From Candidatus Poribacteria bacterium (lineage in GTDB: Bacteria > Poribacteria > WGA-4E > WGA-3G): 39,366 nucleotides of DNA. The DNA lies in assembly GCA_009839745.1 (NCBI GenBank), contig VXPE01000022.1, positions 1 to 39,366 on the forward strand, given 5' to 3'. The notes beneath the pieces are model-generated. The model was not told the origin of the DNA. It did no database searches and worked only from the letters and a program-made list of their open reading frames with translations. A program made the position numbers and the translations under genes. Position 1 is the stretch's first letter. Each line of letters starts with the position of its first letter. Of the stretch, positions 5,465-32,153 are shown piece after piece.

Positions 5465-5554
5465 GCCATGCAACAACGGCGCATGGCGGATTTTTGAAAG
5501 GTTGGTGCCCAGCTGAGACTTTCCTGACAGCTCCCGTTAGGGGTAAATTAAAAG
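5465..5554 (+). repeat. Family 1 intergenic element, copy A (leader of lipA)
   Basis: It starts with a 7-bp hairpin, GCCATGC / GCATGGC (5465-5471, 5481-5487), around the loop AACAACGGC. It ends in CCGTTAGGGGTAAATTAAAA directly before the lipA ATG. This is the most diverged right end, but the stem carries compensatory changes relative to the GCCTGC/GCAGGC copies. Confidence 0.7.
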
Positions 5555-6448
5555 ATGTTAAAAACGCTTCCATTAGTTGAGCAAAGAACACCGCAAAGAC
5601 GGCATCCGTCCTGGATCAAAGCTCGAATGCCGAGTGGCGTTAACTACGCTGAACTCAAGAAATTGATGCGGAATCTGCAACTTCACACAGTCTGCGAAGA
5701 AGCGCGCTGTCCGAATATCGGTGAGTGTTGGAACAGCCGGACCGCCACCTTTATGATACTCGGTGATGTCTGCACGCGTCGCTGCATGTTCTGTGCGGTC
5801 AAAAAAGGCACGCCCGGTGGGATCGTCGATGCCGATGAACCGCGCAGACTCGGTGCAGCCGTCGGTCACTTAAAACTCAAGCATGTGGTTATCACCTCAG
5901 TCAATCGGGACGACCTTGTGGACGGAGGCGCGGGTATCTTCGCCGCATGCATCGCCGAAGCCCGGAAACATCGTCCGGGATGCACCGTGGAAGTCCTCAT
6001 CCCCGACCTCGAAGGCAATTGGGAGGCACTCGCTGTCATCGTGCAAGCACGACCTGAAGTGCTCAATCATAACACCGAAACAGTTCCACGTCTTTATCGT
6101 CGCGTCCGTCCGTATGCGAATTATCAACAAACCTTGAACCTGCTCCGCACCAGCAAACAACTGGATGCACAGATGCTCACAAAGTCGGGACTTATGGTCG
6201 GCTTAGGTGAGACTGTGACAGAACTCTTAGAGACAATGGAAGACCTCCGCAACACCGAATGTGATATTCTCACTGTGGGTCAATACCTCTCCCCTTCCGC
6301 GCGGCATTTGCCCATTCAACGCTATTATACCCCTGAAGAATTTGAAGAGATCAAAGAAGCAGGCATCGAAATGGGGTTTCGACATGTAGAGTCGGGGCCA
6401 TTAGTGCGGAGCTCCTACCATGCCGGTGAACAAGCAAGGTTAGCATAA
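5555..6448 (+). CDS. lipA: Lipoyl synthase (radical SAM)
   Basis: LipA inserts two sulfurs into the octanoyl chain on lipoyl domains of the 2-oxoacid dehydrogenases and the glycine cleavage H protein. The auxiliary 4Fe-4S cluster ligands are C47, C52 and C58 in VCEEARCPNIGECW. The radical SAM CxxxCxxC is C73, C77, C80 in CTRRCMFC. The C-terminal RSSYHAGE (from R285) carries the serine that ligates the auxiliary cluster. The 297-residue length is typical. The start ATG at 5555 directly follows a family 1 element ending GGTAAATTAAAAG. The only Shine-Dalgarno-like bases are the AGGGG about 12 nt upstream. No lipB lies nearby. Confidence 0.97.
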   Translation: MLKTLPLVEQRTPQRRHPSWIKARMPSGVNYAELKKLMRNLQLHTVCEEARCPNIGECWNSRTATFMILGDVCTRRCMFCAVKKGTPGGIVDADEPRRLGAAVGHLKLKHVVITSVNRDDLVDGGAGIFAACIAEARKHRPGCTVEVLIPDLEGNWEALAVIVQARPEVLNHNTETVPRLYRRVRPYANYQQTLNLLRTSKQLDAQMLTKSGLMVGLGETVTELLETMEDLRNTECDILTVGQYLSPSARHLPIQRYYTPEEFEEIKEAGIEMGFRHVESGPLVRSSYHAGEQARLA

Positions 6449-6527
6449 AACTAACCTCTATTATAGCATTTAACACGGGTCCTCTCCTCAATCGCGCCCT
6501 CTACATATCTCCAAGAAATTTTCAGAC

Positions 6528-6556
6528 TTTACATTAAATCCGATTTTTGATATACT
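6528..6556 (+). promoter_or_regulatory. Promoter of the PQQ dehydrogenase operon (TTTACA-17-TATACT)
   Basis: TTTACA at 6528-6533, a 17-nt spacer and TATACT at 6551-6556 match sigma-70 hexamers at five of six positions each. The leader to the ATG at 6674 is about 110 nt. Nothing else notable is seen in the 225 nt between lipA and this gene. Confidence 0.6.
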
Positions 6557-6673
6557 AATGCCTGAATCACACATTTTTGCAGCACTGCAAAATACCTCGC
6601 GTTTCCTTCATGACACGGTTTCTAAAGAAGTAAGAAGTTGGGATTGTCTCACCATCAGCACAAGGAGGGGAAC

Positions 6674-8401
6674 ATGAACAGACATATTTTCTCTGAAGCA
6701 TCAAACTGTTGTTCACACATAAAACGCGTAAGTTTCATTATCTTCGTCGTAAGTTTAGTATTTGCTGCGACACCGAGTCTCATCACAGCCGGAACCACAC
6801 CGGATATCCAACCCGTCACGAACGAGATGTTACTCTCATCACAAGACGACCCTGAAAGCTGGCTGATGTATGGACGGGACTACAGAAGCTGGCGATATAG
6901 TCAACTCACACAGGTTAACACTGAAAACGTCAAAAAACTCGTCCCGAAATGGGCATTTCAAATTGGAACACCCTTCGATAAGTTTGAATGCACGCCACTT
7001 GTCGTCAACGGTGTGATGTTCGTCACCACTCCCTACAGTAGTATCTACGCTGTGGACGCAAGAACCGGTAAGGAAATATGGCGGTATAATTATGAACTCC
7101 CCGACGATTTAGCGATCTGCTGCGGTATGGTGAACCGGGGCGCTGCTATCTTGGGCGATAAAATCTTTTGGGTAACGCTTGACGCACACCTGCTCGCCCT
7201 TGATGCGAAAACCGGCAGGGTCCTCTGGGACAGAGTGGTCGGGGATCTAACGAACGCTGAATCCCTTACTGTCGCCCCGTTAGTCGTCAAAGACAAAGTG
7301 ATTGTCGGCATATCAGGCGCAGAATACGGCATCCGAGGCTACATCGATGCGTATTACGCCGAAACAGGTGAACAGGCATGGCGATTTTACACCGTCCCTT
7401 CAAAAGACGAGCCCGGCGGTGACACATGGGAAGGCGATTCATGGATGACAGGTGGCGGATCCGCCTGGGTCACAGGTTCCTACGACCCGGAATTGAATCT
7501 TGTCTACTGGGGAACGGGTAACCCGGCACCAGACTGGAACGGTGCTGTCCGGAGAGGCGACAACCTCTATACCGACTGTATCGTTGCGTTGGATGCCGAT
7601 ACCGGAAAACTCAAATGGTATTTTCAAGCCACCCCCCACGATCTATGGGATTGGGACGGCGTGAGTGAACCCGTCCTGATCGATATGGAGATAGATGGCG
7701 CGCCGGTCAAAGCGTTGATGCAAGCGAATCGTAACGGCTATTTCTATGTACTTGATAGAACCAACGGAAAATTTCTATACGCAAGCACTTACTGCGAACA
7801 GAACTGGTCGGCGGGACTCGATGAAAACGGGCGTCCTACCGTCCTACCCGGCGTATCCACCTCAGAAGAAGGCACGATTCGCGTCTGTCCCGGCGTTGAA
7901 GGCGGCAAGAACTGGCCCCCCTCAGCCTATAACCCGCTCACAAATTACCTCTATATCCCATCGCTGGAACTCTGCGGTTCCTTTCATCAAGGGCGCGTTT
8001 TCTATGTGAAAGGTCTACCCTACCTCGGAAGTGGTATGACAGCAGAGAGGAACGAAGCTGGAGACATGGAGATGTGGGGACATATCAGTGCAATCGATGT
8101 CTCTACAGGTGAGATTAAATGGCGACACAAAACGAACTTCCCACAATGGGGCGGATGCCTCACAACGGCAGGCGGTCTCGTTTTTTCGGGGGATTTAGAG
8201 GGCAGATTCATGGCACTCTCGGCAGAAACCGGCGAAGTGCTTTGGGATTTTCAGACTGGATCCGGGGTTCTTGCACCGCCTATCACCTATCAACTTGACG
8301 GTGTCCAATACGTTGCGATAGCGTCAGGTGCTGTGAAATATGCTGAAGTTAATGCTCGCGAAGGCGGAACCCTTTTTGTGTTCGCGCTCTTTGATGAATA
8401 G
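6674..8401 (+). CDS. XoxF-like PQQ-dependent alcohol dehydrogenase, periplasmic, probable lanthanide type
   Basis: An eight-bladed quinoprotein of 575 residues that oxidises an alcohol (substrate not predictable) and passes electrons to cytochrome c. A signal peptide lies at about 16-40. The vicinal disulfide C149-C150 is in AICCGMVNRG, metal ligand E217 is in SGAEYG, and a GTGNPAPDWNG region is present. The PHDLWDWDGVSEP motif gives catalytic D326 and, two residues on, D328. In methanol dehydrogenases an Asp at this +2 position marks lanthanide enzymes (XoxF, PedH, ExaF), whereas calcium MxaF has Ala. ATG 6674 is chosen for its AAGGAGG at 6662-6668 and the fitting signal peptide; an in-frame TTG at 6638 lacks these. 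The binding protein and cytochrome genes follow, as in xoxFJG operons. Confidence 0.88.
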   Translation: MNRHIFSEASNCCSHIKRVSFIIFVVSLVFAATPSLITAGTTPDIQPVTNEMLLSSQDDPESWLMYGRDYRSWRYSQLTQVNTENVKKLVPKWAFQIGTPFDKFECTPLVVNGVMFVTTPYSSIYAVDARTGKEIWRYNYELPDDLAICCGMVNRGAAILGDKIFWVTLDAHLLALDAKTGRVLWDRVVGDLTNAESLTVAPLVVKDKVIVGISGAEYGIRGYIDAYYAETGEQAWRFYTVPSKDEPGGDTWEGDSWMTGGGSAWVTGSYDPELNLVYWGTGNPAPDWNGAVRRGDNLYTDCIVALDADTGKLKWYFQATPHDLWDWDGVSEPVLIDMEIDGAPVKALMQANRNGYFYVLDRTNGKFLYASTYCEQNWSAGLDENGRPTVLPGVSTSEEGTIRVCPGVEGGKNWPPSAYNPLTNYLYIPSLELCGSFHQGRVFYVKGLPYLGSGMTAERNEAGDMEMWGHISAIDVSTGEIKWRHKTNFPQWGGCLTTAGGLVFSGDLEGRFMALSAETGEVLWDFQTGSGVLAPPITYQLDGVQYVAIASGAVKYAEVNAREGGTLFVFALFDE

Positions 8402-8432
8402 TTGTCAGTTATCGGTTGTCGGTTATCAGTTA
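8401..8432 (+). repeat. Tandem GTTATCGGTTGTCGGTTATC-type degenerate repeat
   Basis: The stretch after the dehydrogenase stop repeats a GTTRTCRGTTATC unit. The same unit, in reverse orientation (ACTGACAACTGATAACTGAC), occurs at 16677-16700, and weaker forms occur at 25549-25570 and 10497-10512. All are intergenic. Confidence 0.5.
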
Positions 8433-8493
8433 AGAGACGCTTCGGTTGATTCAGAAATCTCTTTAACCGAAAACCAATAGATAGGAGGGTACC

Positions 8494-9363: not shown

Positions 9364-9365
9364 AA

Positions 9366-10518: not shown

Positions 10519-10547
10519 GTCATTTAACCGCAAGGAACATTAAAAAG
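10519..10547 (+). repeat. Family 1 element, right end only (leader of dapB copy 1)
   Basis: ATTTAACCGCAAGGAACATT is followed by AAAAAG and the ATG. A 35-nt stretch (10519-10553), including the first dapB codons, is identical to 11394-11428. No clear hairpin of the family is seen on its left. Confidence 0.7.
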
Positions 10548-11351
10548 ATGATTGGTGTGATTATTAATGGGGCATGTGGCCGTATGGGCCGGCTTATTAT
10601 CCGAGGTGTTACTGAACAAACCGATATGGAAATCGTCGGCGCGATTGAATTCCCGGAACACCCACAGATCGGGAGTGATGCGGGTGTTGTTGCCGGCATC
10701 GGAGAAATAGGAGTCGCGGTTACAGGTAACCTTGAAGATGTACTTGACGCCGCAGATGTTGTCATCGAATTCTCGAAACCTGAGGCTACCCTGCAACACC
10801 TCCGACAGGTCGTCAATGCCGACAAAGCGATGATAATCGCAACAACCGGATATGACCCTGATGAACTCGCCGCTGTCGAGGAACTCGCATCACAGATCCG
10901 TTGCGTAATGGCACCCAACATGAGTCTCGGTGTCAATGTGATGATTCAGGCACTGGAATTAATTGCTAAAGCCCTTGGGGACGATTACGACATTGAAGTG
11001 ATAGAGGCACATCACAATCACAAAGCAGATTCACCCAGCGGCACAGCCCTCCGCTTAGCGGAAACCGTTGCTCAGGCATTGGGGCGAGATTTAGATGAGG
11101 TAGGTGTCTACGGTCGCCACGGCATCGTTGGCGCAAGACCGAAAAAACAGATAGGCATTCATGCGGTTCGAGGGGGTGATATCGCCGGCGACCATACGGT
11201 GTTGTTCGCAACAGAGGGTGAGCAACTCAGCGTCGTCCATCGAGCACATAGCCCAGAGGCTTTCGCTAAAGGCGCAATCCGCGCAGCGAGATGGGCCATC
11301 AACGCCCCTAAAGGATTACATGATATTAGCGAAGTCCTGTTTCAGGAATAG
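10548..11351 (+). CDS. dapB: 4-hydroxy-tetrahydrodipicolinate reductase, copy 1
   Basis: DapB reduces hydroxy-tetrahydrodipicolinate with NAD(P)H in the diaminopimelate/lysine pathway. The Rossmann motif is GACGRMGR at 8-15. The active-site segment EAHHNHKADSPSGTALRLAE has H155 and K159 matching the catalytic His and Lys of the E. coli enzyme. The GDHTVLFATEGEQL segment near the C-terminus is typical. At 267 residues it is full length. The ATG directly follows a family 1 right end. The gene is intact and is followed by a second intact dapB 71 nt later, so this is a recent tandem duplication. A DapL-type aminotransferase gene lies 3 kb downstream. Confidence 0.95.
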   Translation: MIGVIINGACGRMGRLIIRGVTEQTDMEIVGAIEFPEHPQIGSDAGVVAGIGEIGVAVTGNLEDVLDAADVVIEFSKPEATLQHLRQVVNADKAMIIATTGYDPDELAAVEELASQIRCVMAPNMSLGVNVMIQALELIAKALGDDYDIEVIEAHHNHKADSPSGTALRLAETVAQALGRDLDEVGVYGRHGIVGARPKKQIGIHAVRGGDIAGDHTVLFATEGEQLSVVHRAHSPEAFAKGAIRAARWAINAPKGLHDISEVLFQE

Positions 11352-11393
11352 TAGACACGCCTCTATATCAAAATCGTCAAAGCTCAAATCCAC

Positions 11394-11422
11394 GTCATTT
11401 AACCGCAAGGAACATTAAAAAG
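11394..11422 (+). repeat. Family 1 element, right end only (leader of dapB copy 2)
   Basis: Identical to the leader of copy 1 across GTCATTTAACCGCAAGGAAC and the following ATTAAAAAG. The dapB duplication therefore carried this element, or the element was homogenised along with the gene. Confidence 0.75.
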
Positions 11423-12220
11423 ATGATTCGTGTTGCTATCACCGGTGTTTGCGGTCGTATGGGACGTTGCATCACGCGTGGCATTGTCCAACACCCCAAT
11501 ATGCAACTCGTCGGAGCCGTCCAATACCCTTCACATCCACAGATTGGAAGTGATGCGGGTGTTGTCGCCGGTATCAGTGAGATTGGCGTAACCATTACAG
11601 GCAAACTTGACGACGTACTTCATCGTTCAGATGTTGTCATCGAATTTTCAAAGCCTGAAGCAACCCTGGATCACCTCCAACACGTCGTCGATGCAGATAA
11701 AGCCATGGTTCTTGGAACAACCGGTTTTACCGCAGACGAACTCGCGACCATCCAAGCACTTGCTTCACAGATCCGTTGCGTAATGGCACCCAACATGAGT
11801 CTCGGTGTCAATGTAATGATACAAGCATTGGAATTAATTGCCAAAACCCTCGGAAATGATTATAATATTGAAGTGATAGAGGCACATCACAATCACAAAG
11901 CAGATTCACCCAGTGGCACAGCACTCCGTGTAGCGGAGACTCTTACCACGGCACTTGAGCAAGATTTAGACGAGGCGGGTGTTTACGGTCGCCACGGCAT
12001 CGTTGGTGCAAGATCGAAAAAACAGATAGGCATTCATGCGGTTCGAGGTGGCGACATCGCCGGGGATCATACGGTGTTGTTCGCAACAGAGGGTGAACAA
12101 CTCAGCGTCATCCATCGAGCACACAGTCCAGAGGCTTTCGCCAAAGGCGCAATCCGCGCAGCGGAATGGATAATTGACGCGCCTAAAGGGTTACACGATG
12201 TTAGCGAAGTCCTGTTTTAA
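11423..12220 (+). CDS. dapB: 4-hydroxy-tetrahydrodipicolinate reductase, copy 2
   Basis: Same reaction and same motifs as the upstream copy: GVCGRMGR at the N-terminus and an intact EAHHNHKADSPSGTALRVAE catalytic segment. It has 265 residues. The two copies differ throughout the N-terminal nucleotide-binding half and in the segment after the active site. They are nearly identical in the blocks around QIRCVMAPNMSLGVNVMIQA and the catalytic site. All key residues remain, so both are probably active. They might differ in cofactor preference or expression, but nothing in the sequence shows which. The end overlaps the start of the next gene by 23 nt, implying translational coupling. Confidence 0.95.
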   Translation: MIRVAITGVCGRMGRCITRGIVQHPNMQLVGAVQYPSHPQIGSDAGVVAGISEIGVTITGKLDDVLHRSDVVIEFSKPEATLDHLQHVVDADKAMVLGTTGFTADELATIQALASQIRCVMAPNMSLGVNVMIQALELIAKTLGNDYNIEVIEAHHNHKADSPSGTALRVAETLTTALEQDLDEAGVYGRHGIVGARSKKQIGIHAVRGGDIAGDHTVLFATEGEQLSVIHRAHSPEAFAKGAIRAAEWIIDAPKGLHDVSEVLF

Positions 12221-14234: not shown

Positions 14235-14285
14235 TCCCAGCGGGGAAACCCAAGGTGTGTAGAGAAACATTACACCCAAAACGCA

Positions 14286-14379
14286 GCCTGCAACAACGAC
14301 GCGAGGTTTTTCTTCAACTCGAACCCGGAAACTGTTAAAGCACAGACTGCATCGCTTAGCCGCAAGGAAAAATTAAAAA
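14286..14379 (+). repeat. Family 1 intergenic element, copy B (leader of the PhyH-family gene)
   Basis: GCCTGCAACAACGACGCGAGG (split at 14291/14292 between stem and loop) begins the copy, with a weakened stem. It ends in CCGCAAGGAAAAATTAAAAA with the ATG at 14380. Length is 94 nt. Confidence 0.75.
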
Positions 14380-15123
14380 ATGACAGACGAACAGAAATAT
14401 CTATTTGATCTGCAAGGCTTTATTGTCCTGAAGAGTGTTATCCCCCAGATAGTAGTCGAGGCGTGTAATGCTGTGTTAGATCAGTACGAGAATATGCCGC
14501 CCGACGACTATCCACCCCCGCTGTGCCTCGGCACACAGCGAACGGAGAAAGAACTCTACATCTCTAACATCTTGGAGGCAGACAGTGTATTCAATACGCT
14601 GATCGACATCCCGGAGGTTCTGGATGTAATTCAAGGTGTAACCGGGGGTCCGTATCGACTCAATCATACCTACACAATTTACCGGTGGGGGGGTGGCTAT
14701 ACCGGGTTGCACATGCACGGAACACCGATTATCCCGAAATGCCAATATCATTGTAAAAACGGAGAGATGGTATCAACCTTAACAAAAGCGGTCTTTCCGA
14801 TGCTGGATTGTGATATGGAGGACGGGTGTTTCGCTGTTATACCGGGGGCACATAAGAGCAATTTCGCAAAACCTTGGGGAAGCCACCCGGATGAAAACCC
14901 TGTGCTGACCCCGATCCCAGCAAAAGCAGGGGATGCCATTATTTTTACAGAGGCACTCACACACGGGTCGGTCATCAATGTTTCCGGTAAACCGCGTCGG
15001 ACACTCTATTACTGCTATAGCATCGGCTATATGCCAGATTGGGGCGGTCAAGGTCTACATTTCAGCCCGAACGTTATGGACAGCCTCAACGAATCCCAAC
15101 AGTCAATCCTTCATCTAAAATAA
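14380..15123 (+). CDS. Phytanoyl-CoA dioxygenase (PhyH) family protein
   Basis: A 247-residue protein of the PhyH-like Fe(II)/2-oxoglutarate oxygenase superfamily. Recognisable parts are YLFDLQGFIVLKSVI at the N-terminus, CFAVIPGAHKSNFAKP in the core, AGDAIIFTEALTHGS with the distal His at about 195, and RRTLYYCY with the 2-oxoglutarate-type Arg at 206-207. The usual HxD metal motif is not obvious: the corresponding place reads G-L-H111-M-H113-G-T-P. Either the metal site has an unusual ligand set or the ligand order differs in this subfamily. Substrate is unknown. The start directly follows a family 1 element. It lies between lysine-pathway genes without evident functional link. Confidence 0.85.
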   Translation: MTDEQKYLFDLQGFIVLKSVIPQIVVEACNAVLDQYENMPPDDYPPPLCLGTQRTEKELYISNILEADSVFNTLIDIPEVLDVIQGVTGGPYRLNHTYTIYRWGGGYTGLHMHGTPIIPKCQYHCKNGEMVSTLTKAVFPMLDCDMEDGCFAVIPGAHKSNFAKPWGSHPDENPVLTPIPAKAGDAIIFTEALTHGSVINVSGKPRRTLYYCYSIGYMPDWGGQGLHFSPNVMDSLNESQQSILHLK

Positions 15124-15225
15124 TTTTTAACTATGGACTCCTGGACTGCCCTTCAAATGTAAAGCAAAGACAAATTATGCCATTTGAGGCATAATTTCAC
15201 TACGGGCAGGTTTTTGGTGAGTCCA
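15124..15225. repeat. Nested palindromic intergenic element, family 2 copy 1
   Basis: It begins TTTTTAACTATGGACTCCTG right at the stop of the PhyH gene. Three nested pairs follow: TGGACTC (15134-15140) with GAGTCCA (15219-15225), CTGCCC (15146-15151) with GGGCAG (15204-15209), and AAATTATGCC (15172-15181) with GGCATAATTT (15188-15197). The same opening sequence with a different hairpin occurs at 22853-22926. Confidence 0.7.
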
Positions 15226-15267
15226 CAACTACCATAAGGATATGTGCGGCATATCATCCAAAAACAA

Positions 15268-15398
15268 GCCTGCAACAACGGCGCAGTTTTTTTTGCTTGG
15301 GGTTTTTGCTTGGGTGTTTCTGCGGATTTCTTCAGCCCGAACACACAAGCCGTTAAATTCGCGGATCCTATGACTTATCCGCAAGGTAAATTAAAAAT
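15268..15398 (+). repeat. Family 1 intergenic element, copy C (leader of dapL)
   Basis: GCCTGCAACAACGGCGCAG (15268-15286) begins the copy and a run of eight T follows, which looks terminator-like. Its right end is CCGCAAGGTAAATTAAAAA just before the ATG. It is about 40 nt longer than the other copies because of an internal stretch with TTTTTGCTTGGG twice, also found once in the copy at 16700-16811. Confidence 0.75.
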
Positions 15399-16568
15399 AT
15401 GATTACAATCGCAGAACGGTTAGAAAAACTTCCACCCTATCTTTTCGTAGACCTGCGCCAAAAAATGCAGGCAGCACAAGCACGCGGTGTCGATGTGATT
15501 AGCCTCGGTATCGGTGACCCGGATCTTCCAACACCTGACCCAGTTGTTGAAACCTTATGTAGTGCGATCCAAAATCCCGATGATGCAGACAGGCACCGCT
15601 ACGGCTGCGACAACCCTGTTGACGATTTTCCACAGGCAGTCCTCGACTTTTACCAGCACCGTTACGGGGTCACATTATCCGATGATCAGGTAGCGACAAC
15701 ACTCGGTAGTAAAGACGCAATCGTCAAAATGGCACTCGGTATCCTCAATCCGGGCGATATTGGTATAGCGGCGAGTCCAGGCTACCCTACCTACAACATC
15801 GGACACGTCTTCGCCAGTGCAACGACCTACTATGCTCCGCTTCTGCGAGAAAACGATTTCTATGTTGACTTTGACGCTATTCCTGATGAAGTGAAACGAC
15901 TTACCAAAGTTCTCTGGATCAACTATCCAAACAATCCGACAACCGCCACTGCCGACCTCGATTTTTTCGAGCGTGCCGTGGAGTTTGGTAGACAAAATAA
16001 CATCCTGATCGCGCACGACAACGCCTATAGTGAGAACACCTACGACGGTTATCGCTCACCCAGTATATTGCAGGTGGAAGGTGCAGCGGAAGTCGCGGTT
16101 GAGTTTTTCTCATTAAGCAAAGCGTTTAACATGACAGGCTGGCGCTTGGGGTTTGTCGTTGGCAACCCAACTGCTGTTAGTGCAGTCAAAACGGTGAAAG
16201 ACAATATCGACAACGGTTCACTCCGCTCACTTCAATTCGCCGGGGCAAAGGCACTTTCAATAGCGGACGAGATTACACCCGCAATTAACGTCGTTTATCA
16301 AAAACGCCGCGATATGGTGGTAGATGCCCTGAGAGACAGCGGGTGGACAATCGAGAAGCCGAAAGCAACAATGTATGTTTGGGCACCGGTCCCTGAGCGT
16401 TTTAACGGTTCAAGTCGTGCCTTTGCGACGGCATTGCTTGAAGAAACAGGTGTTGTTGTAACACCAGGTCTCGGATATGGACAGTGGAGCGAAGGCTATT
16501 TTAGAATCTCGCTGACATACCCAGACGGAGTGATTGCGGAAGCAATTTCGCGTATTCGCGATTTTTAA
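15399..16568 (+). CDS. dapL: LL-diaminopimelate aminotransferase-type class I/II aminotransferase
   Basis: A fold-type I PLP enzyme of 389 residues. The PLP lysine is K241 in SLSKAFNMTGWRLGF. Other conserved parts are GIGDPDLPTP at 38-47, TLGSKDAIVKM at 101-111, NYPNNPT at 175-181 and DNAYSE at 207-212. The start ERLEKLPPYLFVDL and the IGDPDLPTP block resemble DapL enzymes, which convert tetrahydrodipicolinate directly to LL-diaminopimelate, bypassing succinylated intermediates. Two dapB genes 3 kb upstream support that role. Related alanine/aspartate-type aminotransferases share much of the pattern, so substrate is moderately sure. The ATG follows a family 1 element with no other Shine-Dalgarno. 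Confidence 0.82.
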   Translation: MITIAERLEKLPPYLFVDLRQKMQAAQARGVDVISLGIGDPDLPTPDPVVETLCSAIQNPDDADRHRYGCDNPVDDFPQAVLDFYQHRYGVTLSDDQVATTLGSKDAIVKMALGILNPGDIGIAASPGYPTYNIGHVFASATTYYAPLLRENDFYVDFDAIPDEVKRLTKVLWINYPNNPTTATADLDFFERAVEFGRQNNILIAHDNAYSENTYDGYRSPSILQVEGAAEVAVEFFSLSKAFNMTGWRLGFVVGNPTAVSAVKTVKDNIDNGSLRSLQFAGAKALSIADEITPAINVVYQKRRDMVVDALRDSGWTIEKPKATMYVWAPVPERFNGSSRAFATALLEETGVVVTPGLGYGQWSEGYFRISLTYPDGVIAEAISRIRDF

Positions 16569-16647
16569 ATTTACCTTGCGGTTCGGTCAGGGCGGTTTGC
16601 TGCATAAAGTTTCTTTGCGTATATCCGCCTGCGCCGATGTTGCAGGC
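16562..16647 (-). repeat. Family 1 intergenic element, copy D (inverted, overlapping the dapL stop)
   Basis: On the minus strand it starts with hairpin GCCTGC / GCAGGC around AACATCGGC (16647-16627) and ends CCGCAAGGTAAATTTAAAAA, covering the dapL TAA at 16566-16568. A 59-nt part (16575-16633) is repeated at 16710-16768 with one difference. Confidence 0.8.
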
Positions 16648-16676
16648 TACGCGCTTAGGTCTAACAAAAACCTTTC

Positions 16677-16700
16677 ACTGACAACTGATAACTGACAACT
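16677..16700 (+). repeat. ACTGACAACTGATAACTGAC simple-type repeat
   Basis: This short, internally repetitive sequence sits between two family 1 copies and is the reverse of the repeat at 8401-8432. Function unknown. Confidence 0.5.
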
Positions 16701-16811
16701 AAATTATATCTTGCGGTTCGGTCAGGGCGGTTTGCTGCATAAAGTTTCTTTGCGTATACCCGCCTGCGTGTTTTTGCTTGGGTATTTTTGCGTATTGTTG
16801 CAGGCTGCTGT
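16700..16811 (-). repeat. Family 1 intergenic element, copy D2 (inverted, with stretched loop)
   Basis: This is a second copy of the inverted element 135 bp from copy D. The hairpin arms GCCTGC (16762-16767) and GCAGGC (16800-16805) are 32 nt apart instead of 9, because of an insert containing TTTTTGCTTGGGT. The right end is degraded to CCGCAAGATATAATTTAG. Confidence 0.7.
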
Positions 16812-16848
16812 CTTCGGACGGAAAAGTAAAGATAAAACCAAACCGTAA

Positions 16849-16934
16849 GCCCGTAACGTAGTGGAGGGCGGATTCGAGGAATACGCGTCAAAGTTTCACA
16901 TTCACTTCATCACTCCGCAAGGTAAAATTAAAGA
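16849..16934 (+). repeat. Family 1 intergenic element, copy G (leader of the SpoIIE sensor gene)
   Basis: The arms are changed to GCCC (16849-16852) and GGGC (16866-16869). GGCGGATTCGAGGAAT follows, resembling the interior of the copy at 20800-20885. The right end CCGCAAGGTAAAATTAAAGA abuts the ATG at 16935. With copies D and D2 it fills the 366-nt gap between dapL and the sensor gene. Confidence 0.6.
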
Positions 16935-19900
16935 ATGAAAAACTCCATTTTAATTTTTAGCATCATCCTTTTGATCCTCCTTGTCTGTATTGAGACGGAG
17001 TCTGAGCAAATCCTTACCTACACCGTCGCCGATGGATTGATAGGTCCGGTTGTCCCTGTCGTTTTTCAGGACAGTCGGGGGGATCTATGGTTCGGTTCCG
17101 ATCGGGGTGGGGTGAGCCGATTCGATGGGATCAGGTTTGAATCTTACATCGGATCTCCCGATACTTCTGAGAACGCACCCACCTCCAATGTAGGACCTGG
17201 GGCACTCCTTGGACAGACCCGACAAATCGTCGAAGACAAATGGGGACATATCTGGTTCCTCACGCATTTCCGCGCAGAAAACTCCGGGAGAGTCAGTCGG
17301 TTTGACGGTTCTTCTATTAATCTGATAGGCACCGGCAATTCACTGCTGGTTGACGATCACGGCGATATATGGGTCGGTGAAAACCAGCAACTCACGAAGT
17401 ACATCACTCCAGGGGTCCAACGCCTGCCCCAAGCACATCCAAACGAAATTATAGGCGAAGATCTGCTCCGCTCAAGGGATTTCGCAATAAACATTATCTT
17501 TGAAAGCGATGATGGAACGATTTGGATCGGTGGCAGCGAAGGTGAAGAACAACCGCAGGGTGTAATCCTCAGTTTCCGAGAGAACCGTTGGGTAGAGGAC
17601 CCCTTAAAAATCACGGACAGTGATAACGCAAACGAGAAAACGGATGATGGAACACAGCGGGTTCATCCAAATATTGGATTTACACGCTACGACTTGTCAA
17701 ACCTTAACGCTGTGAATGCAATAGAAACAATAGGTGAAGATACTTCTGGAAACCTGTGGTTCGGTGGCTACAATCTTCTCTTACGTTTTGATGGGAAAGT
17801 CTTTGAGAAAATCCTTCCTTTAGCTTGGGGACAGAGTGGCTCCATAGGTAGTAAACCTGCATCAATCCAGAGACTGGCATCAATACAGAATGACACGAAA
17901 AATCGAGTCTGGTTCAGCGATGGACGCACGACAAGATGGTGGCATGACTCTCAGCACGGAAACCTACTGGGGTTTCTTGAGCTCGAGGATGCATGGGGCA
18001 ATCTATGGTTTACTGACGAAACTGGAGCACATCAATACGATGCCAACCTCACGCAACTGCCCGACCGTATCAACAGTGGACTCGGCGTTGAAGGGATTCA
18101 TACGATTTATGAAGCCATAGATGGTAAATTGTGGTTTGGCCACGATAATGGCGTAACATCATTTGACCCAACACCTGCTATCAGCACACACGCTGGCCTC
18201 GGAACCAATAGAGTCCGGATGATATTTGAGGACAGTCGAGGTTACCTCTGGTTTAGTGTGCCAGGGGGTGTCGCCCGTTACGATGCAGAATCCGAAGAAC
18301 TTACCACACATATTTTCAGAGTGAGTTTAGTGCAAAATGATTCATCGCGCGCCTCTCAAACTGACAATAGAACTATGGAACGCGTTCGGCCCTTTCGAAC
18401 TGAAATCGAAAAAATATTTGAAGTTGGCGGGCACGTTTGGTTTATTGACGAACCAGGGGTGGGCGGGAGTTCCACGCAATTGCGATATACTTTCTTTCGA
18501 TACGCAAATGGCAAGTTCGGCCAAGTGTCTATTCCTATCCAAACAGCAATCGGGCCCGGTGGCGAACGGTCAGATACCAACACGAATGTTCTCATCCACG
18601 AAGGAGAACATACTTGGATGGCTTTCGGAGGGCACCTCTTTAAAGCCGACGCAACAGGATTATTACGGTTGACAAACACCGGCTTTCAAAGAATCCCGTT
18701 TCAAGAAATCGGTCCGAACACTACTCCTACTCCAATCTCCCCAATAGCGTTCGGTGCAGCCGCTATCACCGATGTATACAGAGATTCCAACGATAGATTA
18801 TGGGTCCACTTCGATAACGGAAAGTCCCTACGCTATCCGAAAGAAATTAACACCACACCAAATCGTCCGAGTAAACCTGAAACCCTGCCCCTTCAAGCGA
18901 CAACCCTGTTAAAAATCGCATCAGGCAGCAAATGGTTTTTTAACGCCGTAACGGGGAAATTGATACTTTGGAGTGACACTGAACTCGGTAACCCACTTCC
19001 GCTCGACGGAGAATCGAGTACGCTCCCGATTGCTGTTTGGAAGAACCCAAGGGAGACAAATAACCGAATAACTTTTCTTTTTCCCGATGCTCTCAAAACC
19101 TATCACGGCACAACACTCATTTCTCTTGAGGACATTGAACTCGCTGAACTACAAGACTCCCTAACGACGCAAGAGGGGGTGCTCTGGTTAGCAACATCCC
19201 GCGGGGTCATCCGCTATGATGGGGAAAACGCGAGAACCTATACAACAAAAGAAGATGGCTTTCTCGTTGATAACGTGAAGGATGTCATGGAGGATAGTCG
19301 CGGAAATATATGGTTCGCGACATGGGGCGGCGGCACTGTCCGATACGACGGCGAAACCTTTTATAACCTCACAACAAAAGACGGTCTCACTCATAACAAT
19401 ATCTCGAAAATTCATGAATCTGCCAATAAAGATATTTGGTTTACAACCGAAGGCGGCGTCACACAATATACACCCACACGTGGTGGACTGCCAGAATGTC
19501 GACTGACCTCTCTTGAATCCGATAAAATTTACACCGACCTTTCATCGAGTTTAACACTGCCCTCGCGCGGAACGAAGATTTTAAATATCCAAGGTATCAG
19601 TCCGCTCCGAGAAGGGCTGTCCTATCGATTTAAATTAATCGGACTGGACACTCCCACATGGACAAACGTTTCGGCAGAGGAGTTCTCGCTTCTGGCAACA
19701 GGTGCCGGGGGAATCTCCGAGGCGTGGACCCCTTCTACCGCCTCCGTGTCAACGCCGCAGCATATCATGCGCGACAGTGGTATTGTCCAAGAACTCCAAA
19801 ATCAAGACGGGATTCTGCGTATCCGATATACAGGGCTTAAAGCAGGCAATTACAGGTTCCTCGTCACGGCATTCCGTAAAGATTGGCCCTATACACATAC

Positions 19901-20807
19901 ACCAGCAGTGGTGGATTTCAGCATATCGCCACCCCTCTGGACGCGGTGGCGAACTTATCTCCCAACAGTCATCTTTATGACCGTCGTTCTAACGCTAATT
20001 GGTCGTCTGATTGTAAACCGTCGCCATACCCTACAACTGCGTAATGAAGTGCGTCAAAGGGAAGAAGCGGAGATACAACGTATCCGTGCCGAACTGAGCG
20101 AGGCACAGAATATTCAGATGGGACTTTTGCCGACCGAAGCCCCGGATACGAAAGGGTTTGATGTTGCGGGTATGTCGGTCCCCGCGACACAGGTAGGTGG
20201 CGACTTCTACGATTATCTCACCGTCGCGAACGGACAGACCGCTATCGCGGTCGCAGATGCCGCCGGAAAAGGATTAAGAGGCGCGATGAACGCCGTGCTA
20301 ACGAATGGAATGCTATATGAAGTCTCGCGTTTCAAGTCCGAATCGGGTATCATTCTTACCGATCTCAATGCCGGGTTAGCACCTCGCATGTATGGACCGA
20401 GTTTCATCGCGCTGAACCTCGCTGTCCTTGATGAAACCAAGAGACGGGTTGACTATGCGAACGGGGGACAACCCTATCCTGTTCTTAAGCGAGGTGCGGA
20501 GATCATTGAAATTGAAAATAGCGATCTTCCACTCGGCAGTATGAAAAAGGTGGAGTATGAGTCGGTCACCTTCGATTTAAATGCGGGTGACATCCTAATT
20601 TTTCATAGCGATGGTCTGATTGAGGCACTCAATACGGACGAAGAAATGTATGGCACGGAACGTTTAAAGGAAGTGGTTTCAAAAATTCCTGATAGTTTCA
20701 CAGCGACAGAAGTCATTCAAAGCCTCGTTGAAGATGTTCAAAACTTCGTCGGAGAAGCGGAGCAATACGACGATATGACAATCGTTGTTATCAAAATCCC
20801 CTTTTAA
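16935..20807 (+). CDS. Two-propeller membrane sensor with cytoplasmic SpoIIE/PP2C serine phosphatase
   Basis: A 1290-residue protein. The signal or anchor is at 4-19. About 15 Reg_prop repeats (for example LWFGSDRGGVSRFDG and IWFATWGGGTVRYDG) follow to about residue 850, enough for two seven-bladed propellers as in Bacteroides hybrid two-component sensors. A Y_Y_Y-like beta domain follows at about 870-1000. One transmembrane helix is at 1006-1025, a coiled coil at about 1028-1056, and a PP2C-like SpoIIE domain at 1057-1290. The metal-site motifs VGGDFYDY, VADAAGKGLRGAMN, FHSDGLIEA and YDDMT are intact. Inferred role: periplasmic ligand sensing controls dephosphorylation of an anti-sigma-antagonist. 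No partner STAS or anti-sigma gene lies in the window. Confidence 0.9.
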   Translation: MKNSILIFSIILLILLVCIETESEQILTYTVADGLIGPVVPVVFQDSRGDLWFGSDRGGVSRFDGIRFESYIGSPDTSENAPTSNVGPGALLGQTRQIVEDKWGHIWFLTHFRAENSGRVSRFDGSSINLIGTGNSLLVDDHGDIWVGENQQLTKYITPGVQRLPQAHPNEIIGEDLLRSRDFAINIIFESDDGTIWIGGSEGEEQPQGVILSFRENRWVEDPLKITDSDNANEKTDDGTQRVHPNIGFTRYDLSNLNAVNAIETIGEDTSGNLWFGGYNLLLRFDGKVFEKILPLAWGQSGSIGSKPASIQRLASIQNDTKNRVWFSDGRTTRWWHDSQHGNLLGFLELEDAWGNLWFTDETGAHQYDANLTQLPDRINSGLGVEGIHTIYEAIDGKLWFGHDNGVTSFDPTPAISTHAGLGTNRVRMIFEDSRGYLWFSVPGGVARYDAESEELTTHIFRVSLVQNDSSRASQTDNRTMERVRPFRTEIEKIFEVGGHVWFIDEPGVGGSSTQLRYTFFRYANGKFGQVSIPIQTAIGPGGERSDTNTNVLIHEGEHTWMAFGGHLFKADATGLLRLTNTGFQRIPFQEIGPNTTPTPISPIAFGAAAITDVYRDSNDRLWVHFDNGKSLRYPKEINTTPNRPSKPETLPLQATTLLKIASGSKWFFNAVTGKLILWSDTELGNPLPLDGESSTLPIAVWKNPRETNNRITFLFPDALKTYHGTTLISLEDIELAELQDSLTTQEGVLWLATSRGVIRYDGENARTYTTKEDGFLVDNVKDVMEDSRGNIWFATWGGGTVRYDGETFYNLTTKDGLTHNNISKIHESANKDIWFTTEGGVTQYTPTRGGLPECRLTSLESDKIYTDLSSSLTLPSRGTKILNIQGISPLREGLSYRFKLIGLDTPTWTNVSAEEFSLLATGAGGISEAWTPSTASVSTPQHIMRDSGIVQELQNQDGILRIRYTGLKAGNYRFLVTAFRKDWPYTHTPAVVDFSISPPLWTRWRTYLPTVIFMTVVLTLIGRLIVNRRHTLQLRNEVRQREEAEIQRIRAELSEAQNIQMGLLPTEAPDTKGFDVAGMSVPATQVGGDFYDYLTVANGQTAIAVADAAGKGLRGAMNAVLTNGMLYEVSRFKSESGIILTDLNAGLAPRMYGPSFIALNLAVLDETKRRVDYANGGQPYPVLKRGAEIIEIENSDLPLGSMKKVEYESVTFDLNAGDILIFHSDGLIEALNTDEEMYGTERLKEVVSKIPDSFTATEVIQSLVEDVQNFVGEAEQYDDMTIVVIKIPF

Positions 20808-20885
20808 TTTTTCCTTGCGGAGAAATAACGTGCGTTTCAACTTTTGCGTGCGTTCCTTAAATCCGCCTGTCCCGTTGTTGCAGGC
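20800..20885 (-). repeat. Family 1 intergenic element, copy E (inverted, overlapping a stop codon)
   Basis: On the minus strand, GCCTGC / ACAGGC around AACAACGGG (20885-20865) leads to CCGCAAGGAAAAATTAAAA, which covers the sensor gene's TAA at 20805-20807. Length is 86 nt. Confidence 0.75.
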
Positions 20886-20931
20886 TACACCTTTGGTTTA
20901 ATGTTCTACTCTTATAAGGGTATCAGTTGCC

Positions 20932-28496: not shown

Positions 28497-28512
28497 TAGA
28501 GAAAATTATGCA

Positions 28513-28542: not shown

Positions 28543-28593
28543 GCATAGCGCCCCACGAAGTATTCCACATAATATTTTACAAGGAGCATTATC

Positions 28594-28776: not shown

Positions 28777-28785
28777 TTGAGATTC

Positions 28786-28814
28786 TTGACATATTATATC
28801 CATTTGGTTATAAT
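28786..28814 (+). promoter_or_regulatory. Perfect consensus promoter TTGACA-17-TATAAT of the toxin-antitoxin operon
   Basis: TTGACA (28786-28791), 17-nt spacer, TATAAT (28809-28814). The toxin ATG is at 28820, five nt after the -10 box, so transcription would start on or next to the A of the ATG and give a leaderless message. An operator would have to overlap this promoter. Confidence 0.8.
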
Positions 28815-28819
28815 ACATT

Positions 28820-29501: not shown

Positions 29502-29681
29502 TTCAAGGCACAACTCACCCTGTCGCATCAACGTGAAAACGCGCTCATCGACGAGCGATCCAAACTCCTCGCCCTGTTATCCGCAGAGAAAGCCGAAAAA
29601 GCACGCTCGCCTGCCGCCAGCAGACGAAAAGTTCCGGAAATCTCCAAACTGGCTGCTCCGGCTCGTCGGTGCGCGATAGTG
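29502..29681 (+). pseudogene. Degenerate coiled-coil gene remnant after the antitoxin
   Basis: Directly after the antitoxin TAG, the same frame reads on as LTLSHQRENALIDERSKLL and ALLSAEKAEKA, an amphipathic helix typical of real coding sequence. One frame over, it continues as FRKSPNWLLRLVGAR and a stop at 29677-29679. Many mobile-element-associated DNA-binding proteins end in such a coiled coil followed by W-x-R-L-x-G. I read this as a frameshifted C-terminal remnant. It has no start or Shine-Dalgarno. The remaining 150 nt to 29830 show nothing I can support. Confidence 0.4.
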
Positions 29682-29830
29682 TTGCCGAATCCGAAAAGTG
29701 GAAACCCTGGTTGCAAACCGTGAAGAAACACCTCAGCAAAAGCCCTACCGGGCCTGGGGAAAACATCAAATTACCGAAATATTTTATTAATTTTCATCCA
29801 ATCCCGCTAACAAAAAACAAAACGTCTCGC

Positions 29831-30973
29831 TTAGAGATCGATAACCGCTCCAGTCGCTGCCGAACGATACCCGGCACAGATAATTTCTACGGAATGTGCC
29901 GCAAATTCGGCGTTCATTTCGCTCTCTACCCCCTTTTCAATACAATCGACAAAGGCACCGAATTCACGGGCGCTGTCGTCATGACTCCCGATGTCTATCC
30001 ACTGTTGCTTCGGCGGCGTTCCAAGCTCCGCCTGCGTGCTGCTCCACATCCCCATCGGATCGAGCGGATGCGGTGAAGGGGGTTCAAACGCCGATTCAGC
30101 CGCAAATACCTCCAAACGATTCGCTGACGCATCAAAGGTCAGACTCCCTTGGGTGCCGACGAGATGCACCTTTCGCACACCACCTTGTGCATGACTCTGC
30201 CACCCGTAACGTCCACCGGCGATCGTGGCTGTGATCCCATCTTCCAACGTTAGGAGCAAAGCACCGAAGTCCTCAACATCGCAGCCGAGATGCTCCTTAA
30301 AGAAATAGTTCGCCGTTCCCCCGAACACACGCTGTACCCGCTTCTGTGTCAACCAATTCACCATAGACACCGCATAGACACCGACATCGAACATTTCAGG
30401 TTTCGCTTCAACGAAACTGTAGCGCTCACGTTCGGATTTTTCGACCCTTTTTTGTCCGACAGGCGCGCTACCGGGATGTCCCTTGGAGAACAGGACATCA
30501 CAATGAACCGCCTGAAGTTCGCCGATACTTCCACTTGTCAACGCCTGCTGGACAGTGCGTGCCCAGGCACTGTGAATGTTGCTGAACATCTGGCTTCGCA
30601 CGCCGCTCTTCGCAACCGCCGCAACGATCTTCTCCGCATCTTCTGGTGTGAACGCCATCGGCTTATCGAGATAGACATGCTTTCCCGCTTCGGCACATTT
30701 CGCCCCTATACGCCCGCGACGTTCTACGTCTGTACAGAGACTTACGATATGCACATCCTCGCGTGCGAGTGCGGCATCGAGGTCTATGAACGGCAAATCC
30801 AAAGATTCAGCGAGCGAACGTGCTAACCGAATCCGTTCTGAGGGTGCATCCGGTTCATCGGCGAAAGCGACCAACCGACAGCGTGCGTCCTGTGCAAAAC
30901 TCGATGCGTAATTCTCTTGATGTGTACGATTTCCACCGAGTAGGAGAACCCCATATTTTCCATTCTCTTGCAT
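29831..30973 (-). CDS. Gfo/Idh/MocA-family oxidoreductase
   Basis: A 380-residue NAD(P)-dependent sugar or polyol dehydrogenase-like protein. The N-terminal Rossmann domain starts YGVLLLGGNRTHQENYASSF, in which the usual GxGxxG is reduced to LGGNRTH. The family's catalytic lysine motif is D-K-P at 103-105 in GKHVYLDKPMAFTPEDAEKI. The C-terminal beta-sheet domain includes GLLL-type segments such as DFGALLLTLEDGITATIAGGRYGW. Substrate unknown. The upstream gene on the same strand ends 2 nt before it, so they form an operon. TTGGAGG precedes the ATG. The degenerate nucleotide loop could weaken cofactor binding. Confidence 0.88.
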   Translation of the reverse strand: MQENGKYGVLLLGGNRTHQENYASSFAQDARCRLVAFADEPDAPSERIRLARSLAESLDLPFIDLDAALAREDVHIVSLCTDVERRGRIGAKCAEAGKHVYLDKPMAFTPEDAEKIVAAVAKSGVRSQMFSNIHSAWARTVQQALTSGSIGELQAVHCDVLFSKGHPGSAPVGQKRVEKSERERYSFVEAKPEMFDVGVYAVSMVNWLTQKRVQRVFGGTANYFFKEHLGCDVEDFGALLLTLEDGITATIAGGRYGWQSHAQGGVRKVHLVGTQGSLTFDASANRLEVFAAESAFEPPSPHPLDPMGMWSSTQAELGTPPKQQWIDIGSHDDSAREFGAFVDCIEKGVESEMNAEFAAHSVEIICAGYRSAATGAVIDL

Positions 30974-30975
30974 GT

Positions 30976-31419
30976 TTAAGCCTCCAAGGTAATAGGTTGA
31001 CCGCTCTCAAGCGATTGCGCGATAGCCGCTGTCAATTCACCCGTGGCACCCAATTGTGGGGATGTAGCGTTCAGGTAGTGCCGACCCACCGGCGTTTCGT
31101 GATAGATAACACCTTTATTACCGACCAACATGATGTCAATCGCTGTCTCGACTTCGACCCGATTGACACTCAATAGTGCCATCTGTCCTCCCGCATAGTG
31201 GAGCATTACCGTGACCTGTGTTGCGCCTGCATCTCCTTGCACATAGACCCGCACTGGCGATGAGGGCATCCATCCATTCGCGAGTGCTGCCATCTCTGAC
31301 ACCGGTGATAGCAAATTCGAGGCATCACCCCCCACATGCAGGACGCACCGCAGGAACACTGGACTCCCAATCCGTTCTTTCTCAATTACAGATTGAACAG
31401 ATGTTTTAAGCAATTCCAT
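30976..31419 (-). CDS. Stand-alone Gfo/Idh/MocA C-terminal-domain-like protein
   Basis: A 147-residue protein without a Rossmann domain. Its sequence (SPVFLRCVLHVGGDASNLL, VTVMLHYAGGQMALLSVNR, IDIMLVGNKGVIYHETPVG, and a final AAIAQSLESGQPITLEA) follows the beta-sheet and last-helix pattern of the C-terminal half of Gfo/Idh/MocA dehydrogenases. It is co-transcribed with, and lies 2 nt upstream of, a complete family member. It could be a partner subunit or the surviving half of a broken gene. AAAGGAG before ATG 31419 favours an expressed gene. Confidence 0.65.
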   Translation of the reverse strand: MELLKTSVQSVIEKERIGSPVFLRCVLHVGGDASNLLSPVSEMAALANGWMPSSPVRVYVQGDAGATQVTVMLHYAGGQMALLSVNRVEVETAIDIMLVGNKGVIYHETPVGRHYLNATSPQLGATGELTAAIAQSLESGQPITLEA

Positions 31420-31469
31420 ATCTTCTCCTTTCCAAAGTTTGTAGGTTTTCCCATACTGCGAAACAGGAA

Positions 31470-31557
31470 GCCTGCAACATCGGCGCAGGCGACTCCAGAG
31501 GAAGGCACTTCTCGCACGAAATCACGTTTATTCCGCCGCAAGGTAAGTTAAAAAATA
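31470..31557 (+). repeat. Family 1 intergenic element, copy F
   Basis: The hairpin GCCTGC / GCAGGC around AACATCGGC (31470-31490) is perfect. The right end CCGCAAGGTAAGTTAAAAAA is followed by ATATTG rather than a usable ATG. Here the element borders a promoter, not a start codon. Confidence 0.8.
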
Positions 31558-31587
31558 TTGACGAATCTACTTACATTATGCTATATT
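31558..31587 (+). promoter_or_regulatory. Candidate rhodanese promoter (TTGACG-18-TATATT)
   Basis: TTGACG at 31558-31563 and TATATT at 31582-31587, immediately after a family 1 element and 115 nt before the rhodanese ATG. Confidence 0.5.
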
Positions 31588-31701
31588 TTGTCAAACCCGT
31601 TTTGGCTTACACTTTATGAGTATGGGCTTGCAAGCTGCGCCCTACACTGCCAAAATTCTCTCAAGTTCAATCAGCAGTTTTCAACCCTTATGGAGGAAAC
31701 A

Positions 31702-32067
31702 ATGCCACTAAAAACCCTTAAACAACTCGTTGCTGAAGCGAAAGCGAATGTCGGACACATTTCACCCGACGAACTTACGGACGCAAAACAATCGGTTGTC
31801 CTGATAGATGTGCGTGACGAACCCGACTACGATGAAGAACATCTACCGGAGGCGGTTTCTCTACCTCGCGGCTACCTTGAACTCGATATCGATGAGATCG
31901 CCCCTGAGGCAGACACACATATCATTACGTATTGCGGCGGTGGGACCCGTGCTACGCTCTCTGCACACACCTTAAAAAACATGGGTTATGAAAACGTATC
32001 CGTGCTAACGGGTGGATTCCGTGGTTGGAAAGCCGAAGGACTCCCCACCGAAGCATCCGACGAATAA
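31702..32067 (+). CDS. Single-domain rhodanese-like sulfurtransferase
   Basis: A 121-residue cytoplasmic protein with one rhodanese domain: VVLIDVRDEPDYDEEHLPEAVSLP, then the active-site loop from C78 in TYCGGGTRA, and the ending LTGGFRGWKAEGLPTE. The catalytic cysteine is present, so it can carry a persulfide. I chose ATG 31702 because GGAGG lies 5 nt upstream; an in-frame TTG at 31558 would add an unlikely 48-residue leader that overlaps the promoter. No partner gene identifies its sulfur acceptor. Confidence 0.92.
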   Translation: MPLKTLKQLVAEAKANVGHISPDELTDAKQSVVLIDVRDEPDYDEEHLPEAVSLPRGYLELDIDEIAPEADTHIITYCGGGTRATLSAHTLKNMGYENVSVLTGGFRGWKAEGLPTEASDE

Positions 32068-32132
32068 GTGTCCCTAATGCATGTAGATTAGCATAGCTGA
32101 CAGACATTGTCAACATTTTAGGTCTTCAGCAG

Positions 32133-32153
32133 ATTTTTAATTATACCTTGCGA
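32133..32153 (-). repeat. Family 1 element, right end (inverted) downstream of the rhodanese gene
   Basis: On the minus strand TCGCAAGGTATAATTAAAAA matches the family right end with one change in the core. To its left (32154-32225) the hairpin is not recognisable. The remainder of the gap to 32261 contains the palindrome CCAAGCTTGG at 32213-32222. Confidence 0.5.

Follow-up and report, generated by a model that had tools for sequence, protein, structure and literature searches.

The window analysed here, a stretch of 39,366 nucleotides (contig VXPE01000022.1 of assembly GCA_009839745.1) from a Candidatus Poribacteria bacterium, a lineage of sponge-dwelling bacteria, contains a dispersed element of ~101-109 bp that is found between positions 5,465 and 32,153 upstream of start codons, antisense at gene ends and between genes. 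An initial annotation of this DNA had proposed about ten copies in 27 kb, with eight full copies and three right ends. We built a covariance model (R1) from ten copies, six of them inside the window and thus matching by construction; the genome-wide matches are independent of the fit of these building copies. All eight full copies lie at their proposed positions and are recovered by R1, and the three right ends are present as well, the one at 32133(-) being an R1 match and the one at 11394 a weak match. The occurrences are the following.

5444..5554, plus strand: variant copy with hairpin GCCATGC..GCATGGC and right end CTCCCGTTAGGGGTAAATTAAAAG, adjoining the ATG at 5555; R1 66.4 bits.
10526..10547, plus strand: solo right end AACCGCAAGGAACATTAAAAAG, adjoining the ATG at 10548.
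11401..11422, plus strand: solo right end AACCGCAAGGAACATTAAAAAG, adjoining the ATG at 11423; weak R1 match at 11310-11423, 32.9 bits.
14264..14379, plus strand: full copy adjoining the ATG at 14380 of a PhyH-domain gene (Pfam); R1 63.9 bits.
15246..15398, plus strand: copy with internal micro-inserts, adjoining the ATG at 15399 of an aminotransferase gene; R1 35.1 bits.
16561..16669, minus strand: antisense copy whose right end includes the aminotransferase TAA stop (16566-16568); R1 103.8 bits.
16700..16829, minus strand: copy with a micro-insert within the hairpin loop (repeat families D9 and D10); R1 46.6 bits.
16827..16934, plus strand: copy with a GCCCGTAACG hairpin, adjoining the ATG at 16935; R1 90.8 bits.
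20800..20907, minus strand: antisense copy at the 3' end of the gene 16935-20807, including its stop codon; R1 96.9 bits.
31448..31557, plus strand: intergenic copy with no true start codon adjoining; R1 88.6 bits.
32133..32239, minus strand: degenerate intergenic copy with right end GCAAGGTATAATTAAAAAT, a similar right end being found in G008, G023, and G010; R1 51.1 bits.

Among these eleven places, named from here on by their originally assigned positions, six are leaders (5465, 14286, 15268, 16849, 10519, and 11394), 16562 and 20800 are antisense copies at gene stops, and the remaining three (16700, 31470, and 32133) lie between genes. The gene at 5555 encodes lipoyl-synthase N-terminal and radical-SAM domains (Pfam), and the copies 16700(-) and 16827(+) stand head-to-head, with model matches overlapping by 3 nt. 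The initial annotation requires several corrections. Conservation begins ~17-20 nt to the left of the boundary drawn there (TTAAACCAAA..GTAG), the 5465 copy carries CTCCCGTTAGGGGTAAATTAAAAG and not the common right end CCGCAAGG, and 31470 is not a leader, as the rhodanese-domain open reading frame (ORF) possesses a GGAGG of its own and starts with the ATG at 31702. A TTTTTGCTTGGG-type micro-insert interrupts the copies at 15268 and 16700(-). The right ends at 10519 and 11394, counted as separate copies, stand at the starts of tandem gene duplicates (75% over 300 nt) and thus may represent one insertion that was duplicated.

In what follows, G000 denotes the window's own genome (5.04 Mb in 141 contigs), other G numbers are its relatives, and C36, C41, and L numbers are contigs and loci of the analysis. 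The element is far more numerous than the ~ten copies in 27 kb, with hundreds per genome. The motif CCGCAAGGTAAATTA, with at most one mismatch, matches the genome 85 times, versus 2 for the reversed pattern. An nhmmer profile found 151 matches (E<1e-3) in an 827-kb sample of G000, for which loci L119-L138 had been picked for their richness in matches, and 0 in its 3-nt-block shuffle. In 360 kb of C36 and C41, long contigs already known to bear matches, R1 has 33 matches at E<=0.01, or ~92/Mb, which extrapolates to ~460 per genome. Whole-genome model searches scored the top 53-150 candidates of each genome and so give lower bounds: all 150 scored candidates of G000 match R1, i.e., at least 150 copies. 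In the 72 genomes of the order that were searched, matches at E<=1e-5 occur in 37 of the 38 genomes of the genus (G000 included), in 2 of the 20 genomes from the rest of the family, and in 1 of 14 from other families (3 of 34 outside the genus). Within the genus G021 has no match and G073 at least four at this threshold. The tail motif AAGGnAAATTAAA, which reports both elements and solo tails, occurs 77, 106, and 160 times per Mb in G000, G023, and G008, respectively, and once in 216 kb (5/Mb) of the element-free G021, although G021 is similar in composition (GC 0.473 vs 0.485). Carriage by phages was considered and rejected, since the exact tail pattern was found in one viral contig and the exact hairpin pattern in none. 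In the open-access literature on Poribacteria and on intergenic or repetitive elements we found no description of the element.

The element consists of an A-rich left arm (TTAAACCAAA), a GTAG-tagged hairpin, a spacer, and a nearly invariant tail CCGCAAGG(A/T)AAAATTAAAAA. Its consensus downstream of the arm is nnnGTAGCCTGCAACAACGGCGCAGGCGGATnTACGGAAAGGCACGTnAAAnnTCAAACCCACCTnACCGAACCGCAAGGAAAAATTAAAAAA, as derived from 80 aligned copies: the 81 of 130 matches selected for the conservation profile (length 106-112, >55 bits), minus two tandem duplicates and plus the 5465 variant. The conserved stretch covers ~104 nt, and the best-conserved part in the 81 copies is the tail CCGCAAGGnAAAATTAAAAA, not the palindrome. 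Neither end, TTAAACCAAA.. or ..AATTAAAAA, is an inverted copy of the other, and the two are detected unevenly, the right end carrying most of the information. In 67 of 72 pairs the distance from hairpin to right end is 44-46 nt, the spacer keeping its length more than its sequence. In G017, where the 5465-type variant is repeated eight times in tandem, the period is 101 nt, a measure of the unit size. The hairpin foot could be placed in 77 of 94 matches, where the four positions before the palindrome agree with GTAG in 64, 58, 96, and 83% of cases.

The pairings of the left hairpin alternate between GCCTGC/GCAGGC, GCTTGC/GCAAGC, GCCC/GGGC, GTCC/GGAC, and GCTC/GAGC. In the alignment 46 cells are altered on both sides, a value reached in 0 of 500 shuffles and not approached by slid registers (at most 20). 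Relative to mononucleotide shuffles the hairpin folds with a mean z of -2.6, below -2 in 76% of copies, and the spacer, with z -0.37, folds no better than shuffled sequence. No second hairpin is supported: the right-hand CC-GCAA-GG has only 2 pairs, which never covary, and the two-hairpin IS605-like layout was rejected accordingly. Mutual-information signals between columns 41-49 and 73-80, which could have indicated a second helix in the spacer, reflect CCGAA versus TTTCT-like subtypes and are not outstanding inside a single subtype (53 copies).

The right end of the element is placed with strong polarity toward gene starts. For 115 of the 130 matches (>40 bits, in the 827-kb sample) we compared right ends with called genes, the calls coming from a simple greedy ORF picker for which ATG, GTG, and TTG all count as starts. 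In 65 copies the right end falls at a called start (-6 to +15 nt), in agreement with the suggestion that the element has become the leader of many genes; of the others, 12 run antisense at a gene stop, 12 fall within a called ORF, and 26 lie elsewhere. Left ends come within 20 nt of a divergent start in 5 of the 115 copies. The start codon stands at offset -3 to +1 in 52 copies and is ATG in 47 of them; one of the five TTG or GTG calls (31470) is wrong. Counting ATG starts 0-6 nt after TTAA, we obtained 51 for 117 element right ends (49 of these at +3 or +4), versus 34 for 226 other intergenic TTAAAA sites, which may themselves hold undetected old tails (Fisher p 1.6e-8). The 16S rRNA gene of the genome (1518 bits) ends CCTCCTTT, so that AAGG(A) in the tail can pair with the 3' end GGCTGGATCACCTCCTTT and is a plausible Shine-Dalgarno sequence. 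Twenty hand-picked downstream proteins (19 from the list of 52, plus that of the window gene 15399) belong to 20 different Pfam families, including rRNA adenine dimethylase, lipoyl synthase, AIR carboxylase, and two NADH dehydrogenase subunits. Thus the element appears, judging from its sequence and position, to supply a ribosome-binding site to many unrelated genes, housekeeping ones among them, and ribosomes would then use its tail.

Ten genomes of the genus are collinear with the window, and comparison with them revealed frequent differences at orthologous sites. At 5465 no full copy is present in G023, G010, G005, and G021, of which G010 may keep a right-end remnant; G008 has a single copy, G009 a partial one, and G017 the eight tandem copies (G013 is not assessable). 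At 14380 G008 retains only CGCTTAGCCGCAAGGAAAAATTAAAAA. The start of the 15399 gene is conserved and its leaders vary: elements in G000, G008, G017, and G009, the solo tail AAGGTAAATTAAAAATATG in G023, G010, and G005, AAGGTAAATTAGAAATATG in G011, and AAAGGAGAATACTTTG-type leaders in G001 and G007. Genomes without the 16562 copy, such as G001 and G017, read beyond the aminotransferase stop position. The 20800 copy is present in G008, G013, and G010 and absent from G023, G001, G017, G009, G007, and G021 (nine assessable genomes; G005 is not), and the 31470 copy is absent from G008, G023, G017, and G009, the four of the ten genomes with both anchors.

On C41, aligned with G023 over 119 kb at 94.7% identity, 1 of the 14 full G000 copies is shared, 2 are partial, and 11 are not aligned; for the 8 full G023 copies these numbers are 3, 1, and 4, and for the 13 G000 fragments in the aligned range 5, 1, and 7. 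In 13 intervals that were read (11 full copies and 2 fragments), G023 is without the element in 7, has another copy in 4, and a tail remnant in 2. At native starts the leader has been replaced: GGAGGAGAT-ATG and AAAGGAGAAAGCATT-ATG in G023 correspond to CCGCAAGGAAAAATTTAAAA-ATG and CCGCAAGGAAAATTAAAAA-ATG in G000. The cleanest empty site is C41:95541, a near-clean 131-bp insertion with no target duplication; at C36:118368 AATTAA stands at both ends, but the right-hand AATTAA belongs to the element. Inverted pairs with outward right ends were found at two places, each in one genome only (one in G023, one in G000). Seven head-to-head pairs are seen among the G000 matches, four of which overlap by 15-16 nt, as if they had one common TTAA-like left end, and the others by 11, 3, and 2 nt.

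The presence/absence polymorphism, the tandem array, the inverted pairs, and the fast turnover support the proposal of a non-autonomous mobile element similar to repetitive extragenic palindromic (REP) sequences or miniature inverted-repeat transposable elements (MITEs). Neither outcome that the initial annotation had named as refuting it was observed, since copies are common far beyond the window and the shuffled control has none. Strict membership in either class does not hold, as the ends are not inverted, no REP-associated tyrosine transposase (RAYT) is linked, and no transposition event was seen directly. Our favored explanation, to which we assign a probability of roughly 70%, is a REP-like, non-autonomous mobile element, which arrives with its own ribosome-binding site and can be reduced by decay to a solo tail. 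As to how it moves, we infer that it would be copied or moved via the GTAG-tagged hairpin, its TTAA/A-rich right end joining A-rich DNA immediately upstream of start codons or, in antisense, T-runs at gene ends. The gene would stay translatable because the right end contains AAGG(A/T)AAAATTAAAAA; the native Shine-Dalgarno sequence would turn redundant and be lost, and later decay of the left part would leave a solo tail. A strict TTAA target was rejected, being weak at the left end. A retroposon with an A-rich fixed 3' end and left-truncated fragments was not adopted either, because the excess of such fragments is partly a detection bias toward the most informative right end.

Several observations weigh against the mobile-element explanation. 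At a number of sites the leader is replaced rather than cleanly interrupted, and the 11 unaligned full G000 copies on C41 correspond in G023 to another element copy in three cases and to a tail remnant in one. The 81 copies share 68% pairwise identity on average and 85% in the best non-adjacent pair; near-identical unlinked copies are thus missing, which marks the family as old or quick to change. For one G000 copy that G023 lacks, the closest relatives in G000, G008, and G023 do not exceed 87% across the whole element, which is odd for recent copy-and-paste. Two covariation measures are ordinary, with pairs changed on both sides matched or exceeded in 74 of 500 shuffles and pair types in 78 of 500. 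The AAGG-to-ATG spacing of ~11-12 nt exceeds the textbook Shine-Dalgarno optimum. Density varies inside the genus, AAGGnAAATTAAA being absent from 40-kb samples of G001 and G007. Finally, no mobilizing enzyme was found when Y1_Tnp genes were examined across the genus: they occur in 33 of 37 genomes and show no correlation with the element. G013, G060, G065, and G066 (81-94% complete) each contain 53 copies or more and yet lack any Y1_Tnp at E<=1e-8, and G021 has five Y1_Tnp and no copy. A parent element, with a gene enclosed by such ends, was rejected, five candidate pairs of ends having been listed but not followed up.

The strongest rival, although an unlikely one in our estimate, is leader conversion, in which similar A-rich regions from Shine-Dalgarno sequence to ATG would pass the element on through recombination or template switching, with no transposition. 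Leaders are replaced right up to the ATG, and the cleanest site, C41:95541, lacks a target duplication. Moreover, in the G000 copy with relatives of at most 87%, the left module matches others at 93-100% and the right module at 86-89%, the two having different nearest relatives with a breakpoint just past the hairpin. This hints at recombination; since the modules appear to recombine, conversion is a real rival to transposition. On the other hand, the insertion at C41:95541 is nearly clean, each of the inverted pairs exists in only one of two genomes, and copies also lie antisense at gene stops and between genes.

Somewhat less probable is that the element is a REP or REPIN belonging to the GTAG superfamily and mobilized by a RAYT (Y1/HUH) transposase, its right part only hitch-hiking. 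The GTAG before a palindrome agrees with this, as do a copy number in the hundreds, the head-to-head pairs, and the tandem array, and in PMC8266576 GTAG is described as participating in cleavage by TnpAREP. The genome itself also contains RAYT/REP-like pairs: at L044 and L045 Y1_Tnp genes are flanked by GTAG palindromes (GTAGGTGCGGTTTCCTAACCGCAC; GTAGGCACGCTCCGTCGTGCC). However, the right end and not the palindrome is best conserved, and among the 36 Y1_Tnp loci listed (7 from G000 and 29 from the genus) only L040 and L250 have an element match within ~3 kb. A Y1/RAYT partner was rejected, since its presence does not track the element and four element-rich genomes have no Y1_Tnp at E<=1e-8.

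We consider improbable a cis-regulatory RNA, such as a riboswitch-like leader, inherited together with its genes. About half of the copies are sense leaders and the hairpin covaries, but this one short hairpin is the only structured part, and with no further aptamer and no regulon among 20 genes of 20 families a riboswitch was rejected. The copies are not conserved at orthologous genes, and antisense and intergenic ones would remain unaccounted for. The only Rfam match in the window is a selenocysteine tRNA gene (RF01852, 78.1 bits) at 5350-5439, directly 5' of the first copy. Chance likeness due to composition, for which it can be said that native leaders are A-rich too, is refuted beyond reasonable doubt by the shuffled control and the low density in G021.

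Comparison with known dispersed repeats yields partial likenesses. As GTAG-tagged REPs and REPINs are portrayed in PMC3733652 and PMC3116915, the element resembles them in that a covarying hairpin follows a GTAG-like tag, that its hundreds of copies are mostly intergenic, that head-to-head pairs and tandem clusters occur, and that the spacer is conserved in length more than in sequence. It differs in having one hairpin and a long, nearly invariant tail resembling a ribosome-binding site in place of a mirrored second REP, in its strong placement at start codons, and in that no linked or co-occurring RAYT was found; its conserved ~104 nt also differ from a REP unit of 20-40 bp or two mirrored REPs. 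The TAACTGA direct repeats of Beggiatoaceae, according to PMC4679880, similarly stand mostly a few nt 5' of starts, with no functional theme and with some presumably essential genes among their targets. These are heptamer arrays with little Shine-Dalgarno character, whereas the element is ~100 bp long with a hairpin and its own Shine-Dalgarno-like motif; its consensus contains no TAACTGA tandem heptamers, which occur separately in the genome.

Like IS200/IS605-derived PATEs and bacterial MITEs, the element is short, non-autonomous, and dispersed, with a hairpin near its left end. Unlike them it has no terminal inverted repeats, no supported right hairpin to complement the left one, and no parent element that was found. 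Its mixed orientations argue against an integron attC site. As related families share single traits with the element and none of those compared agrees with it in all, we regard it as a new form within the REP/MITE kind of dispersed repeat.

Other repeats share these intergenic regions. A ~22-nt micro-insert, GAAACRCCC(AAG/TAT)CAAAAACC, is nested in the element hairpin, at the border of hairpin and spacer, and in other repeats (window 15290-15325 and 16765-16795(-); L104:2173, L124:5616, L129:10999). It occurs 19 times in 827 kb of G000, three of these within called ORFs, 0 times as the reversed control, and not at all in 216 kb of G021, and G010 has hairpins with and without it side by side. 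A shorter sister element consists of AATTAAYCARAAACCT, a hairpin GCGCGTAATGAAATGGAGCGC, and AGCCCAGGAGCNCATAAATTAAAAA, with its own AGGAG; it is found at L134:13303, L131:159, L129:2284, and L127:4085(-), some copies adjoin an ATG, and a related leader precedes the 14380 start codon in G013. The inverted-repeat family CAGTTATCAGTTAAGAGG..CCTCTTAACTGATAACTG and TAACTGA-like heptamers populate many intergenic regions (e.g., window 8399-8423 and 16677-16701) and form the element's left arm in some copies. Window 15135-15232 is a separate insertion that G023 lacks, with ends TGGACTC..GAGTCCA and what looks like an AACTA duplication. A further dispersed repeat, whose ends are TTTTAA and whose arms are GACGTTGTCCTTGCAG-like, lies at window 3126-3187 and 34703-34764 and near 2988 of L115, something similar being seen in a G000/G023 indel at C41:122988. 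Near 6903 of L111 (C41:46903) a MITE-like insertion with ends TATAGTAAA..TTTACTATA is absent in G023.

Dispersed bacterial repeats are usually discussed in terms of promoters, terminators, or mRNA stability. Here it is the regions of translation initiation that a single repeat family seems to have captured, and at many genes. A bolder version, which we hold only tentatively and think somewhat more likely wrong than right, is that of a selfish cassette for ribosome binding: a mobile family that docks exactly on native starts, displaces the host Shine-Dalgarno sequence, and enters the translation signals of housekeeping genes, so that the host could not delete the tail even after the mobile part has died, and one uniform initiation region would be seeded at hundreds of genes in one genus. 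The apparent takeover of initiation regions in itself would make the spread of a repeat a route for the evolution of translation signals, and would account for the far stronger conservation of the tail. In a phylum whose listed records are all metagenome assemblies, the family offers a natural experiment on leader swapping.

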